Both the position numbers and the translations under genes were made by a program. This document shows positions 4,399 through 52,917 of a DNA stretch of 64,000 nucleotides, in pieces. The stretch spans positions 806,001-870,000 of the forward strand of contig NZ_JACBYQ010000001.1 in the NCBI RefSeq assembly GCF_013408295.1. Direction: 5' to 3'. The notes under the pieces are model-generated. The model had not been told where the DNA came from. It saw only the letters and a list, made by a program, of their open reading frames with translations, and ran no database searches. Positions within the stretch are counted from its first letter, which is position 1. Each line of letters starts with the position of its first letter. Source of the stretch: Psychromicrobium silvestre. Its GTDB lineage: Bacteria; Actinomycetota; Actinomycetes; Actinomycetales; Micrococcaceae.

Positions 4399-5088
4399 CT
4401 AAAACGGTGGCTCAGAATCGTCACTACTATCGTCCCTTGTTACCGAACTTCTCCCCCTCGGTTTCGGCGCCTTGACAACCTGACTGGGTGGAGCCTCACC
4501 GCTTAGTCGAGCGTCGCCGTCGTCCTGCACACTCTCGGTGCCCTCTCCCTGTGTACCTCCGGCTTGAGCGGCAAAGATCAGTTGTTCGGGAGGTTGGGCG
4601 GGAGCTTCTTGTGGACTACTGGCTGGCTCTTCAGAACTTGCGTCCCGTCCTTCAGGAGTTCCTGTTTCCACCTGATCTAGCGCCCGAGGCTCAGCAGATG
4701 CATCACCAGCGATCTTCTCCAGCTCTGCAGTAGTGCTTGCCCTTTTGAATTTCGCCGTACCCCAGACCAGATCATGCCCCACCGCGTCGGCATCGATTTC
4801 TGGTGCAATTCCGTGCCGCTCCCCCTTGGTCCATTGCCGCAGTTTCAATTTCCCGGTGACAATCACCCGTTCCCCCTTACTCACGCTGCAGGAAGCGTTT
4901 TGCGCTAGGCCACGGAACATTGACACCGAGTACCAATTAGTTCCGGCGTCAACCCATTGGCTCCGCACTCGATCAAAGCGGCGCTCGGTGGAACCAAGGC
5001 GAAAGGTTGCTATCGGCCAACCAGATTCGGTCAGGGTCATTCGCACCTCACTTGCCACAAAGCCTCGGACGGTTACTACATCGTTCAT
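4399..5088 (-). CDS. ssb: Single-stranded DNA-binding protein, second (paralogous) type
   Basis: A 229-residue SSB. The OB-fold occupies about residues 1-115 (MNDVVTVRGFVASEV, WYSVSMFRGLAQNA, VTGKLKLRQW), followed by a long acidic Pro/Glu/Ser-rich tail and a C-terminal tip SDDSEPPF. An acidic tip ending in PPF is the partner-binding tail typical of SSBs. The N-terminus differs from the usual actinobacterial replication SSB, so this is probably a paralogue; that is inference. The upstream region carries a two-part element also found before yraN-comM-dprA, suggesting a role in DNA uptake or recombination. Confidence 0.88.
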   Translation of the reverse strand: MNDVVTVRGFVASEVRMTLTESGWPIATFRLGSTERRFDRVRSQWVDAGTNWYSVSMFRGLAQNASCSVSKGERVIVTGKLKLRQWTKGERHGIAPEIDADAVGHDLVWGTAKFKRASTTAELEKIAGDASAEPRALDQVETGTPEGRDASSEEPASSPQEAPAQPPEQLIFAAQAGGTQGEGTESVQDDGDARLSGEAPPSQVVKAPKPRGRSSVTRDDSSDDSEPPF

Positions 5089-5191
5089 GATCTCTACTCC
5101 TGGATCTATTCGGTTTCTCTTTCAGTTGCCTTGATAAGGCCACTGCCAGTTTCCGACCAGGTGAGGAACACCGCCACGATGCGAACACACG

Positions 5192-5229
5192 ATGTGAGGA
5201 AAAGGTCACTTAAACGGGTTTGGGGAGGA
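5192..5229 (-). promoter_or_regulatory. Two-part conserved element upstream of ssb (copy 1)
   Basis: On the + strand ATGTGAGGAAA (5192-5202), 17 bases, then TTGGGGAGGA (5220-5229). Read toward ssb this is TCCTCCCCAA-N17-TTTCCTCACAT, ending about 104 bases before the ATG. The same 21 bases with the same 17-base spacer occur at 52880-52917, while the spacers match at only 7 of 17 positions. The spacing resembles a -35/-10 promoter for an alternative sigma factor, or a bipartite activator site. Confidence 0.6.
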
Positions 5230-5243
5230 GGAGTGCCCGCTCA

Positions 5244-6176
5244 TCAGCGGAGCAGTTCGCGGGTGACTTCAGTGTCGAAGTAGCGCCCCTTGGCCAGGTC
5301 TTCGAGCAGGCTGGGTTGGGAGGGCTGCCAGCCCAGCAGTTCACGGGTGAGGGTGTTCGACACCGGGACGTCGAGGCTCATGAAGGGACTCAGCCAGCCG
5401 AAGTGCTTCTCTGCGGTCTCAGGGGCAACGGAAGTCACCGGTAGGTCAAGGCGGCGAGCGATCATTTCAGCGATATCTCGGAGCGCGACGCCCTCCTCCG
5501 CAGCACCATGCAGCGCCGATCCCGCGGGTGCTTCCTCAACGGCCAGGCGGAACAATCGGGCGATATCAAGTCGGTGAACCGCAGGCCACCGATTGCTGCC
5601 GTCACCAATGTAGGCGGAGACATTCTTGGCGCGAGCGGTGGCGACCAAGTGCGGTACCCAGGCACGGTCCCCCTCACCGTGGACGGTCGGAGAAACCCGG
5701 ACCACCGAGGATCTGACGCCGCGCGAGGAAAAAGCGAGAGCAGCCTGGGCGGTGACCGACCGAATTACATAGGGGGAATCATCAACGATGGGTTCATCCC
5801 GCTCGGTTACTGCGCGCCCGGTGGGGAAGCCGATGAAACCACTGGCCAACACTAGCGGGCGATCGGTACCTGCCAATGCATCGCCGAAGGTATCGACGAC
5901 GCGACGATCAGCCTCAGCGGCGCCCAGGTAGTCGCCGGTGAAGGCACGTTCGCCATGAAAGGCAAGGTTGATCACCCCGTCGGAGGCCGCGGCAGTTTCC
6001 CCCAACAGCTCGAGGTCATCAAGAGTGCCGTGGACGACTTCGACGCCGGCTGCGCTGAGCGCGGCGGCGGAGGTGGCTGAGCGGGCAAGCCCCACGACCT
6101 GATGGCCCGCGCCGATGAGCTCGGGAACGACAGCAGAGCCGATAAAACCGGAGGCTCCGGTCACAAAGATACGCAT
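5244..6176 (-). CDS. NAD(P)-dependent short-chain/epimerase-family oxidoreductase
   Basis: A 310-residue Rossmann protein of the extended SDR (NAD-dependent epimerase/dehydratase) type. The dinucleotide motif is VTGASGFIGSAV at residues 4-15. The usual catalytic Tyr-x3-Lys pair is not evident; SPYVIRSVTAQAA occupies that region, so this is an atypical member. The ATG at 6176 is preferred over 6188 because GGAG lies six bases before it and MRIFVTG is the usual family start. Divergent from a tetR gene across a region with two inverted repeats, so probably controlled by it. Confidence 0.85.
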   Translation of the reverse strand: MRIFVTGASGFIGSAVVPELIGAGHQVVGLARSATSAAALSAAGVEVVHGTLDDLELLGETAAASDGVINLAFHGERAFTGDYLGAAEADRRVVDTFGDALAGTDRPLVLASGFIGFPTGRAVTERDEPIVDDSPYVIRSVTAQAALAFSSRGVRSSVVRVSPTVHGEGDRAWVPHLVATARAKNVSAYIGDGSNRWPAVHRLDIARLFRLAVEEAPAGSALHGAAEEGVALRDIAEMIARRLDLPVTSVAPETAEKHFGWLSPFMSLDVPVSNTLTRELLGWQPSQPSLLEDLAKGRYFDTEVTRELLR

Positions 6177-49580: not shown

Positions 49581-49689
49581 GATCCCCTCAGTGCTAATAT
49601 CCTCAGTGCCGATCGCTCAGTGCCGATCGCTCAGTGCCGATCGCTCAGTGCCGATCGCTCAGTGCCGATCGCTCAGTGCCGATCGCTCA
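49581..49689. repeat. 14-bp tandem repeat (VNTR) at the 3' end of dprA
   Basis: Five exact copies of GATCGCTCAGTGCC (49611-49680) plus a partial sixth (49681-49689), preceded by diverged copies at 49581-49610. The last copy encodes the final residues and stop of dprA (…VSDRH). 14 is not a multiple of three, and every unit carries a stop on the dprA strand. Confidence 0.95.
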
Positions 49690-50932
49690 CCCCCGATCTT
49701 CGATGCGAACGCAACCAGCCCTCGGTGCCCCTTTTGGCTAGGCCCAGTACCTCCAAACGACCTAGGCCCGCCCGGACGGCACCCTCCTGGAGCCCGGCAA
49801 CGGCACTTAGCTTTTCCACCACGGCTTCGCTGCGCAGCGGGAGCGCGTCCAGCAGCATGAGGTCCTGCGGCGAAAGCCCATCTGTTTCGCGGCTCTCCGT
49901 CGAACGCTCCCCTGCCATACTGCCGATTGGCAGCACTAGTTCGAGGATCTCGGCAGCATCCGAGACACACTGTGCTCCTTCCCTCAGTAGCCGGTGACAC
50001 CCCGCTGAATTCGCCGAATACACCGATCCAGGCACGGCGGCCATGGCTCTCCCCAGGCCGAGCGCATGATGTGCCGTGTTCAGCGCACCGGAACGCCAAC
50101 GGGCCTCCACCACGACTGTCGCGCAGCTAAGAGCAGCGATTAACCGGTTGCGTTGCAGAAACCTATACCTGGTCGGATTAGATCCTGGAGGAACCTCCGC
50201 CAAGAGAATCCCTCGCGCTGCAACTTCCCTCAGCAGTCCCTCATTTCCACTCGGATAGAACCTATCCAAACCGCCAGCCATAACGGCAATGGTTGGTAGC
50301 CAGCCTCCGGGCTGCACACCGGGCTGCATTCCGGACTGCCTCTGCAGGGCAGCCCGGTGTGCTGCGGCATCGATACCATAGGCACCTCCTGAAAGAATCG
50401 TTTTGCCCGAACCGGCCAGGCCATGCACCAATTCGGCGGTGACCGATTCCCCATACCGGGTACTGTCCCGCGAGCCAACCACGGCTATGCAATCCTCTAA
50501 TTGCGGAATCAAACGATCTGCCGCCATAGCTGCCGATCGGTACCAGAGTCCTATCGGCTCGGTTAGCGCCAGATCGCTCAAAGCCCTTGGCCAGGCTGCA
50601 TCTTCGGGAATCATTAGCCCACCACCCAGGCGCTGCATCACCCCGAGATCACGTTCTGGCGCCAAATCGGCAAGCCTCGGGCGCCAACGAGCTAAACAGT
50701 CCTCCAGACCACGCCATTCCAGTGCGGTCTCCTCATCCAGAAGCTCCGCCACAGCTCTCTCGGACTCAGCATCCAAGCGAATCCGGCCGACTGCCACGGC
50801 GAGCGTCTGTACCGGGCCTAGAATCTTCAACAAAGCCATTCCTTGCAGATCCGAAGGTTCCATCAAGCGGCTTAAAGCGGCTCTGGCTATTCTGGGATTC
50901 AGCTCGTCCATTCCTGTTGCAGTTCCTTTCAT
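49673..50932 (-). CDS. dprA: DNA-processing protein DprA (Smf)
   Basis: A 419-residue ssDNA-binding protein that protects incoming DNA and loads RecA during natural transformation. The Rossmann-like core includes CIAVVGSRDSTRYGE, SGGAYGIDAAAHRAAL, TIAVMAGGLDRFYP, LLAEVPPGSNPTRYRFLQRNRLIAAL and ALNTAHHALGLGRAMAAVPGS; a C-terminal winged helix follows. A short MQPGVQPGG repeat is inserted in a loop. The start overlaps the comM stop (ATGA). Its last residues come from the tandem repeat. Confidence 0.95.
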   Translation of the reverse strand: MKGTATGMDELNPRIARAALSRLMEPSDLQGMALLKILGPVQTLAVAVGRIRLDAESERAVAELLDEETALEWRGLEDCLARWRPRLADLAPERDLGVMQRLGGGLMIPEDAAWPRALSDLALTEPIGLWYRSAAMAADRLIPQLEDCIAVVGSRDSTRYGESVTAELVHGLAGSGKTILSGGAYGIDAAAHRAALQRQSGMQPGVQPGGWLPTIAVMAGGLDRFYPSGNEGLLREVAARGILLAEVPPGSNPTRYRFLQRNRLIAALSCATVVVEARWRSGALNTAHHALGLGRAMAAVPGSVYSANSAGCHRLLREGAQCVSDAAEILELVLPIGSMAGERSTESRETDGLSPQDLMLLDALPLRSEAVVEKLSAVAGLQEGAVRAGLGRLEVLGLAKRGTEGWLRSHRRSGVSDRH

Positions 50933-52464
50933 CGCTGAAAGCCGTGCTGTCGCATGCTCAGGGCTTGCCCCAGCTGCTCCGGTCCCGGCTGCGTTTCACT
51001 CGCCAAATCGGCAAGCGTCCAGGCCAGACGAAGCACCCGGTCATATCCTCGAGCGGTCAACATTCCTCGTTCTAGAGCATGATCAACAACTCGAGTGGTT
51101 GATTCCGGCAATCGCAACGGTCCGCGCAGAAGCTGCCCTGAGATCTCAGCATTGAACCCCAAGCCGAAGCGGACCAGCCTAACCGAGGCTCGTTCCCTGG
51201 CCTCGCGCACCCGGGCGGATACCGAAGCGCTACTTTCCGCCGAACCCTGCGCCGAGAGCTGAGCGAGTGAAAGCCTGCCAATAGACAACTGAATATCGAC
51301 TCGGTCAAGGAGCGGCCCAGAGATCCGATTGAAGTACCGTTTGCGAGCCATCGGCGTGCATTGACAGTCCATTCCCTTGCCGGTGGCATTTCCACAAGGA
51401 CAAGGATTGGCGGCTAACACGAGTTGGAAACGAGCCGGATAGGTCGCCGTCCCCGCAGCCCGATGCAAGATCAGTTCCCCACTTTCCAGGGGTTGCCGGA
51501 GGGCGTCGAGAACCCGACGGTCGTATTCCGGCGCTTCATCGAGAAAGAGCACACCGCGGTGTGCTCGGCTGGCCGCGCCCGGACGCGGCAAACCGGAACC
51601 ACCACCCACAATCGAGACCATGCTCGCGGTGTGATGAGGCTTTTCAAACGGTGGACGGCGAATCAGTTCCGACCTGCTGGCAACTACCGCGCCGAGGGAG
51701 TGAATGGCAGTGACTTCCATAGCTTGCATATCGTCCAGATCCGGCAGCAGCCCCGGCAGCCTCTCGGCCAGCATGGTCTTGCCAGCCCCCGGTGGCCCCA
51801 ACAACATGAGGTGGTGCCCGCCCGCCGCAGCTACTTCGAGCGCGGCTTTGGCCTCCGGCTGTCCCGCTACCTCCTTCAGGTCTGGCTCCCGCCCTTCCAG
51901 CGGACTGGCAATTTCGGCAGCAGCATCCTGGCCGGTATCCAAGATCAGATCGGTAGGGTTCGCTCCGAACTCCAAGGCAACTTGTGCCAAGCCGGGAAAG
52001 CTTCGGACCACGGCGCCGGGCACTAAGCTTGCTTCCTCTAAATTGCCGGGAGCCACCACAACCTCGGGGTAACCTGCGCGAACAGCCGCCATCACAGCGG
52101 GCAGAACCCCTCGGATCGGTCTCAGCCTACTGTCCAGGCCCAGCTCGGCTAGGAAAATTGTCCGTCCCGGATCCCGGATATCTCCCGCGGCTCGTAGCGC
52201 CGCCATCACCATGGCCAGGTCAAAGGAGCTCCCCCGTTTCGGCAACGAGGCTGGTAGCAGATTAATCGTAATCTTACGTCGGCTGAGCGGAATTCCGGCA
52301 TTATGAGCCGCCGAGCGAATGCGCTCCTTCGCTTCCATTAGTGAAGCATCCGGAAGGCCCAAAAGCTGAAAAGCCGGAAGGGTTTGCCCGATGTCCGCTT
52401 CCACTTCCACCAGATGTCCGTTTAGGCCAATCAGCGCCACCGCGAATGTTCTGCCTAAACTCAT
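50929..52464 (-). CDS. comM: YifB/ComM Mg-chelatase-like AAA+ ATPase
   Basis: A 511-residue protein: N-terminal ChlI/Lon-like domain (VEADIGQTLPAFQLLGLPDASLMEAKERIRSA), AAA+ module with Walker A LLGPPGAGKTML and Walker B GVLFLDEAPEYDR, zinc-ribbon-like CPCGNATGKGMDCQC, and C-terminal lid. ComM is a branch-migration helicase promoting integration of transformed DNA in Gram-negatives. Here coupled to yraN (TAATG) and dprA (ATGA). Confidence 0.95.
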   Translation of the reverse strand: MSLGRTFAVALIGLNGHLVEVEADIGQTLPAFQLLGLPDASLMEAKERIRSAAHNAGIPLSRRKITINLLPASLPKRGSSFDLAMVMAALRAAGDIRDPGRTIFLAELGLDSRLRPIRGVLPAVMAAVRAGYPEVVVAPGNLEEASLVPGAVVRSFPGLAQVALEFGANPTDLILDTGQDAAAEIASPLEGREPDLKEVAGQPEAKAALEVAAAGGHHLMLLGPPGAGKTMLAERLPGLLPDLDDMQAMEVTAIHSLGAVVASRSELIRRPPFEKPHHTASMVSIVGGGSGLPRPGAASRAHRGVLFLDEAPEYDRRVLDALRQPLESGELILHRAAGTATYPARFQLVLAANPCPCGNATGKGMDCQCTPMARKRYFNRISGPLLDRVDIQLSIGRLSLAQLSAQGSAESSASVSARVREARERASVRLVRFGLGFNAEISGQLLRGPLRLPESTTRVVDHALERGMLTARGYDRVLRLAWTLADLASETQPGPEQLGQALSMRQHGFQR

Positions 52465-52823
52465 TAGCCCACACCCCGCAAATGCTCGATTTTCGGCTCT
52501 GCGCCTTGGGCCAACAGCACCGCCACCGCATCAAGGCGAAGCCGAGCGGTAAAGAATCCATGATGTCTGGCCCAAAGCACGGCAAGAGTGCGCAAGCGAT
52601 GCAATTTGCTCTCAGTTATCGCTTCAAAGGGATGGCCATAACGAAGTGAGCGACGAGTCTTGACCTCAATAATCACCAAGATCTCCCCGTCAAGGGCGAC
52701 TAGGTCAATCTCACCGCTCGGGCAACGCCAATTGGCATCGATCATTTCGAAGCCTCGCCGCTCTAAAAACTCCGCGGCAAGAGCCTCTCCTGCTCTGCCC
52801 AACTCCTCTTTGCTTCTCACCAC
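52464..52823 (-). CDS. YraN-family nuclease-like protein (UPF0102)
   Basis: A 119-residue restriction endonuclease-like fold: ELGRAGEALAAEFLERRGFEMIDANWRC, GEIDLVALDGEILVIIEVKTRRSLRYG (GEID...EVK catalytic-type residues), ITESKLHRL. Start GTG 52823 or 52820 is chosen because conserved residues begin there; the frame continues upstream to 53024, but that part is unlike the family and would cover the promoter element at 52880-52917. First gene of the yraN-comM-dprA operon. Confidence 0.85.
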   Translation of the reverse strand: MVRSKEELGRAGEALAAEFLERRGFEMIDANWRCPSGEIDLVALDGEILVIIEVKTRRSLRYGHPFEAITESKLHRLRTLAVLWARHHGFFTARLRLDAVAVLLAQGAEPKIEHLRGVG

Positions 52824-52879
52824 CTCAGCATCGAGGAAACTAAGCCTTAGGAACAGCAAGAATCCCAAATACCTCCGCA

Positions 52880-52917
52880 ATGTGAGGAAAGTGCCCTTTA
52901 CATGCACTTGGGGAGGA
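52880..52917 (-). promoter_or_regulatory. Two-part conserved element upstream of yraN-comM-dprA (copy 2)
   Basis: ATGTGAGGAAA (52880-52890), 17 bases, TTGGGGAGGA (52908-52917) on the + strand; the same 21 bases and spacing as copy 1 upstream of ssb (5192-5229). Ends 57 bases before the yraN GTG. Position and spacing suggest a promoter shared by DNA-uptake/recombination genes. Confidence 0.6.

Follow-up and report, generated by a model that had tools for sequence, protein, structure and literature searches.

A bipartite element before ssb and yraN-comM-dprA as a probable cis-regulatory site of a competence regulon in Psychromicrobium silvestre and its relatives

Introduction

Two minus-strand gene units of Psychromicrobium silvestre, ssb and yraN-comM-dprA, are preceded by the same pair of short sequence boxes, which raises the question of whether they belong to one regulon for DNA uptake and, if so, how such an element would act. 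An earlier note on this DNA had described the two copies as a candidate competence-regulon promoter, and had offered either an alternative sigma factor promoter or an activator site as the mechanism. We followed up the proposal in the window—the whole stretch of 64,000 nucleotides that was analyzed (contig NZ_JACBYQ010000001.1, positions 806,001 to 870,000)—and in a set of 59 genomes, among which G000 is the window's own genome. Competence has been studied in the relative Micrococcus luteus, whose competence regulon is called currently unknown in a 2026 paper (PMC12849477). The M. luteus studies (PMC4322843, PMC6667448, PMC8467076, PMC12849477) describe the same machinery, i.e., ComEA, ComEC, DprA, an Flp pilus and a CpaB-like protein.

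Results

The element at the two window loci

A pattern search of the window located ATGTGAGGAAA-N17-TTGGGGAGGA at positions 5192-5229 and 52880-52917, with zero mismatches in each case, and the description in the earlier note proved exact: all 21 box bases are identical between the copies, while the spacers agree at 7 of 17 positions (counted by eye). The window holds no further match with up to three mismatches, and 100 shuffles of it gave no match at all. Read on the minus strand, both copies take the form TCCTCCCCAA-N17-TTTCCTCACAT and point at their respective gene. This orientation, with the gene downstream, holds wherever a single neighbor can be the target. The features of the two loci are as follows.

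5220..5229, minus strand: box 1 (TCCTCCCCAA) before ssb (pattern match and column conservation)
5192..5202, minus strand: box 2 (TTTCCTCACAT) before ssb (pattern match and column conservation)
5147..5154, minus strand: predicted -10 region (GGAAACTG) of ssb, 39-46 nt past the CACA of box 2 (columns A41, T45 and G46)
4399..5088, minus strand: ssb, single-strand binding protein (Pfam SSB, 7.2e-17; NCBIfam ssb family, 3.2e-15, above cut-off)
52908..52917, minus strand: box 1 (TCCTCCCCAA) before yraN-comM-dprA (pattern match)
52880..52890, minus strand: box 2 (TTTCCTCACAT) before yraN-comM-dprA (pattern match)
52835..52842, minus strand: predicted -10 region (TAGTTTCC) of yraN
52464..52823, minus strand: yraN, UPF0102 (Pfam UPF0102, 1.3e-25, on a longer reading of the frame)
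50929..52464, minus strand: comM, Mg_chelatase/ChlI family (Pfam, 4.4e-87)
49673..50932, minus strand: dprA, DNA_processg_A (Pfam, 7e-59)

The ssb gene starts at 5088, 103 nt from the element, and its transcription is predicted to begin near 5141, giving a predicted leader of 53 nt; ssb orthologues also lie behind the element in G001, G002 (where the gene is broken) and G004. For yraN, we prefer a GTG start codon 57 nt past the CACA of box 2, picked by comparison with relatives and with alternatives possible, and the predicted transcription start near 52829 would leave a leader of only a few bases. A third exact copy is found outside the window, at G000:C2:868258-868295. Exact identity at two to three loci nevertheless understates the spread of what is a degenerate element: its gene-strand form in G000 reads TCCTCC[AC]CA-N18-TTTCCTCACA, with box 2 also written TTTCC[TAGC]CACA.

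Genome-wide distribution and target genes

The genome-wide search that the earlier note had proposed as a check returned few sites rather than many unrelated ones. In G000, 3 sites were exact and 9 matched with up to three mismatches; the same pattern matched one or two sites in each of five of the six other genomes of the genus and three in the other 52 genomes, against a single match of the reversed control pattern in all 59. A looser pattern outnumbered its control by 48 to 1 in the seven genus genomes, 33 to 5 in the rest of the family and 8 to 5 outside the family. These searches are blind to gene function. The nine sites of G000 precede ssb, yraN-comM-dprA, two AbiEi/DUF559-type genes, DUF4192 (a duplicated site), a SAF/RcpC-CpaB gene, a probable surface protein and an M23 peptidase. 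One of the two sites in G006 precedes comEA-comEC (Pfam SLBB and HHH_3, and Competence), and a directed look revealed the element before comEA in G000 too, with a spacing one base shorter.

We then used a profile, i.e., a sequence-only covariance model built from 17 instances, at a threshold of E<=1 in the 59 genomes. It yielded 81 sites: 50 in the seven genus genomes, 29 in the rest of the family and just 2 among the 22 genomes from other families. In the 3.17 Mb of G000 there were 11 sites at this threshold, and all 11 lie before recurring targets—comEA-comEC, yraN-comM-dprA, ssb, tadZ, the CpaB-like gene, the M23 peptidase, DUF4192, AbiEi/DUF559-type genes and the probable surface protein—so that the same element stands ahead of several unlinked operons for uptake, DNA processing and the pilus, with few sites elsewhere. 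The targets in relatives also include Tad-pilus operons, comF and, in one relative, recA. The idea of a shared competence-regulon element thus gained support from sites before comEA-comEC, Tad-pilus operons, comF-like genes and this single recA.

Sixty of the 81 sites were studied in detail, and the 21 others were set aside (four of these were identified, namely M23 in G002, comEA in G014 and yraN in G024 and G030). By our own tally, 31 of the 60 precede classical genes for uptake, pilus or recombination: comEA (8), the tad pilus operon (7), ssb (5, one being an rpsF-ssb operon), SAF/CpaB (4), yraN-comM-dprA (3), comF-like genes (2), recA (1) and DUF4244 (1). Another 26 precede other recurring targets, i.e., AbiEi/DUF559-type genes (8), DUF4192 (5), M23 peptidases (4), the surface protein (4), DUF222 or HNH genes (3) and WXG100 genes (2); of the remaining three, one precedes a Phd/PIN pair, one an unknown operon, and one falls within a gene. 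Some sites, then, precede genes without a known link to uptake, as with the Phd/PIN pair, WXG100 and the unknown operon. Among sites outside the training set of the profile, 19 of 43 are classical, and the tad, comF-like, recA and DUF4244 sites were never among the training instances. Only 2 of the 60 sites fall within called genes and 58 lie outside, even though 86% of the DNA is coding.

Several of these labels carry their own conditions. At divergent pairs (surface protein/CoA-binding gene, AbiEi-type gene/tRNA synthetase, M23/rpsB), the target was picked by orientation; the AbiEi-type and M23 targets each have a reading frame that begins at +50 or +51, and for the surface protein there is no +51 start that would back the choice over the CoA-binding gene. 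The label of this 621-aa surface protein was given by eye, as neither Pfam nor NCBIfam names it, while the G000 gene at L020 is AbiEi-type from tblastn, without a Pfam match, and the comF-like label stands for Pfam Pribosyltran and TIGR00201 matches under the cut-off. CpaB-like genes with the element occur in G000, G001, G005 and G030.

The searches also brought up some local peculiarities. In G000, DUF4192 is partly duplicated: its promoter and the 5' portion of the gene occur twice, at a distance of 4.2 kb (L022 7001-7592 and 11177-12512; G000:C1:245603 and 249779), and the first copy stops after 167-172 codons. The tadZ gene behind the element in this genome (L164 4372-4950, G000:C2) has only 192 codons, compared with 354-411 for six relatives, so the Tad pilus of the strain may be damaged, although the comEC frame is open. 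Weaker sites were seen before WXG100 (ESX-type) genes in two genera (L168 4616-4906 and L170 3113-3403).

Anatomy of the element and promoter layout

Counted from the last base of box 1 to that of box 2, the spacing is 28 nt in 43 of the 53 alignable sites, 27 in eight, and 29 and 31 once each. For the column analysis, 7 of the 60 sites were dropped for having no CACA and three more as near-duplicates; in the 50 non-redundant sites that remained, conservation is highest in the two boxes themselves, and downstream only A41, T45 and G46 after CACA stand out. The boxes resemble each other, with a CCACA/CTCACA core. The distance to the start codon is likewise fixed: an open reading frame of at least 100 aa (ATG/GTG) starts at +50 to +52 after box 2 in 33 of the 60 sites, whereas the other 97 three-nucleotide windows hold a mean of 2.4 such starts and a maximum of 7. 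Between box 2 and the start codon, at +40 to +46, lies a -10-like hexamer of the nAnnnT type (nAnnnTG with G46). Deviating targets are the CpaB-like genes, which start at about +60, and ssb, whose start lies at about +84 to +104. Because start codons at +50 to +52 have a -10-like hexamer before them, the element is predicted to sit at about -88 to -52 of leaderless promoters—a layout that argues for an activator site rather than a -35/-10 pair.

Conservation in relatives

The element is found ahead of orthologous genes in relatives, including comEA. We scanned yraN and comEA promoters with a weight matrix built from 43 of the 53 aligned sites, including the yraN promoters of G000, G001 and G003; since both the profile and the matrix were partly built from these promoters, the comEA and yraN hits are not independent of them. 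A convincing pair (score of at least 13, reached by no shuffle) precedes yraN in 16 of the 34 family genomes scanned, a count that includes the three matrix contributors, with G008, G033 and G034 outside the scan; 13 of these 16 pairs sit 80-93 nt before the UPF0102 match. In the other 18 family genomes the pair is missing or poor, including G004 and G006 of the same genus, and G005 has box 2 only. In other families, a pair was found in 3 of 15 genomes. The conservation before ssb or yraN that the earlier note had named as a check is therefore partial, being present in some relatives and absent in others.

For comEA, six of the seven genus genomes carry the pair, which is degraded in G002. It was also found in 5 of 10 further family genomes (4 of 14 regions without a recognisable ComEA being left out) and, in another set, in 8 of 15 genomes with none of 40 shuffles reaching the score (4 of 19 regions being left out on the same ground). 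At the class level, an HHH_3 search gave 30 loci whose frames, at 773-1497 codons, are not like those of ComEA, and we therefore hand-picked 20 shorter-frame HHH_3 matches from 118 genomes; 5 of these 20 promoters beat all 40 shuffles. Support outside the family is both short and weak. Outside the genus, box 2 shifts toward TTGTCCACA, which is how the columns of 13 sites mostly read.

Genome G002 presents a particular case, with ssb and DUF4192 broken behind well-preserved elements, a degraded comEA element and comEC matches in more than one frame (L030 7530-7905, L165 3762-4914, L097); with these genes broken, competence genes seem to be decaying there.

Micrococcus

In all 11 Micrococcus genomes, box 1 is present at the comEA promoter together with a degenerate form of box 2, and the start codon follows at +51 or +52. 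The scores are low (2.6-13.8); for 8 of the 11 no shuffle did as well, and for the other 3 one shuffle in 40 did. The genome taken as M. luteus NCTC 2665 has a degenerate copy at comEA with a score of 9.6 (0 of 40 shuffles). At the Micrococcus yraN promoters (L281-L291), 4 of 11 genomes have a box distance of 29 and 6 one of 18-19, with the pair not seen in one; the two spacings differ by one helical turn.

In M. luteus, a genetic screen linked comEA/EC promoter activity to an HTH_17 gene and the CpaB-like gene next to it, and deletion of the CpaB-like gene raised this activity (PMC8467076). The HTH_17 gene of the M. luteus genome examined here fits the published mutated codons after a constant offset of 91 bases, and in G062 (M. 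luteus) an HTH_17 gene adjoins a CpaB-like reading frame. Between these two genes (L292 ~4937-5259) we found CTTTTCCACAA, which resembles box 2 but is paired with a poor box 1 (score 3.6); none of the published mutations between them falls inside a box, as placed with the codon-fitted 91-base offset.

Discussion

The element described here is probably a cis-regulatory site of a competence (DNA-uptake) regulon, as its sequence context and distribution indicate. As the mechanism, we propose that a putative activator would bind both boxes, which form a direct repeat with a spacing of about 28 bp and so lie on the same face of the DNA, and, from about -88 to -52, would recruit RNA polymerase to a weak promoter with a -10-like hexamer and no recognisable -35. 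At many targets, the start codon itself would be the transcription start, giving a leaderless mRNA. The genes so controlled would supply the uptake machine—Tad/Flp pilus genes, the CpaB-like protein, ComEA-ComEC, SSB, YraN-ComM-DprA and the ComF-like protein—along with the M23 peptidase, DUF4192, AbiEi/DUF559-type proteins and the probable surface protein. The sequences themselves show that the element exists, how it is spaced, that its distance to the start codon is fixed, which genes it precedes and that it is conserved. The placement of the transcription starts, activation rather than repression, the action of one single regulator on all sites and induction together with competence are what we infer from this arrangement.

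The two conserved boxes with their mostly fixed spacing might be taken for the -35 and -10 of an alternative sigma factor promoter separated by 17 bp, which was one of the two mechanisms in the earlier note; yet the conserved nAnnnTG hexamer and the start codons, the latter 50-52 nt past box 2 in more than half of the sites, lie further downstream (about 40 and 51 nt) and speak indirectly against such a pair, which would place the transcription start 5-9 nt past the second box; the boxes are alike, and the Micrococcus yraN promoters shift their spacing by a whole helical turn. We regard the sigma-factor pair as disfavored and very improbable, whereas the other mechanism of the note, an activator site, fits. 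Another reading is a repressor that would silence the uptake genes in rich medium and that may be a small HTH_17 protein resembling excisionases. This reading draws on the M. luteus gene Mlut_14660, for which a missense change (R64W) and a ribosome-site change reproduced the raised comEA/EC promoter activity, and on the HTH_17 gene beside the CpaB-like frame in G062; another change upstream of Mlut_14660 (13-M89), however, did not reproduce the effect (PMC8467076). Moreover, activation is what usually goes with a direct repeat placed at -88 to -52, ahead of a promoter that lacks a -35, and the only Mlut_14660 match in the examined loci of the genus is a partial one to a BldC-like gene. Repression is accordingly improbable in our judgment.

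A further reading takes both boxes as degenerate DnaA-binding sites through which DnaA itself would regulate the genes, and it was weighed because the boxes share the CCACA core of the DnaA box, whose consensus is TTNTCCACA. Outside the genus, box 2 mostly reads the near-consensus TTGTCCACA, so that it qualifies as a DnaA box in several other genera, and in the comEA promoter of the outgroup G078 both boxes fit the consensus. The sites of G000, by contrast, read TCCTCC[AC]CA and TTTCCTCACA and form no pair of DnaA boxes, whereas the 9-kb dnaA region of the same genome keeps standard boxes (TTATCCACA twice and TTTTCCACA once) and contains neither TTTCCNCACA nor TCCTCC[AC]CA. At E<=0.001, a search for the DnaA C-terminal domain gave a single match. 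DnaA as the binding protein can thus be set aside for the window's genus specifically, and as a general explanation it is distinctly improbable. As for chance, a mobile repeat or a DNA uptake sequence, the window by itself, with its two copies, might have allowed such a view; but the spacers differ while the spacing is kept, nearly all sites lie outside called genes, and each genome has only a few sites, which go with orthologous promoters. DNA uptake sequences number hundreds per genome and have no fixed relation to promoters, which the element does not resemble, and we consider this explanation practically negligible.

Candidates for the binding factor were also considered. A 70-aa BldC-like gene (Pfam HTH_17) is matched in all five genus genomes examined (G000 and G002-G005), but nothing ties this HTH_17/BldC-like gene to the boxes. 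A large LuxR-type ATPase regulator lies beside the bldC-like gene in G004 (L185 7698-10544; Pfam GerE and AAA_16) and, by eye, in G003 (L187 7624-10431), and is missing there in G000 and G005. The locus of an HTH_17 gene in G020, inspected for a neighboring CpaB-like gene, turned out to be a BREX defence island (L266 6515-11999; BrxA, BrxC). None of these leads was retained.

Competence boxes are known from other phyla, e.g., the ComK box of Bacillus, the CIN box of Streptococcus (SigX) and the CRP-S sites of Haemophilus (Sxy), where one short cis element is likewise common to comEA-comEC, dprA, ssb, pilus and recombination genes. The present element differs from them in sequence, as compared by eye with their consensuses, and in consisting of a pair of boxes in direct repeat, with a spacing of 28 bp, at about -88/-52 of predicted leaderless promoters, with a Tad/Flp pilus operon among its targets. 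It shares the CCACA core with the DnaA box and comes close to it in box 2 outside the genus, yet is not DnaA-like in the window's own genus. A search of mostly open-access papers found no published description of the box. The examined text of the four M. luteus studies describes no such box, and that of two of them (PMC4322843, PMC6667448) no promoter element; the terms 'motif' and 'binding site' have zero occurrences in that of PMC6667448.

For this bacterial group, the element would name concrete target genes, map their promoters and serve as a DNA bait with which the regulator may be captured. It would also offer first functional leads for several actinobacterial proteins without an assigned function, together with a first entry point into how these bacteria turn on DNA uptake.
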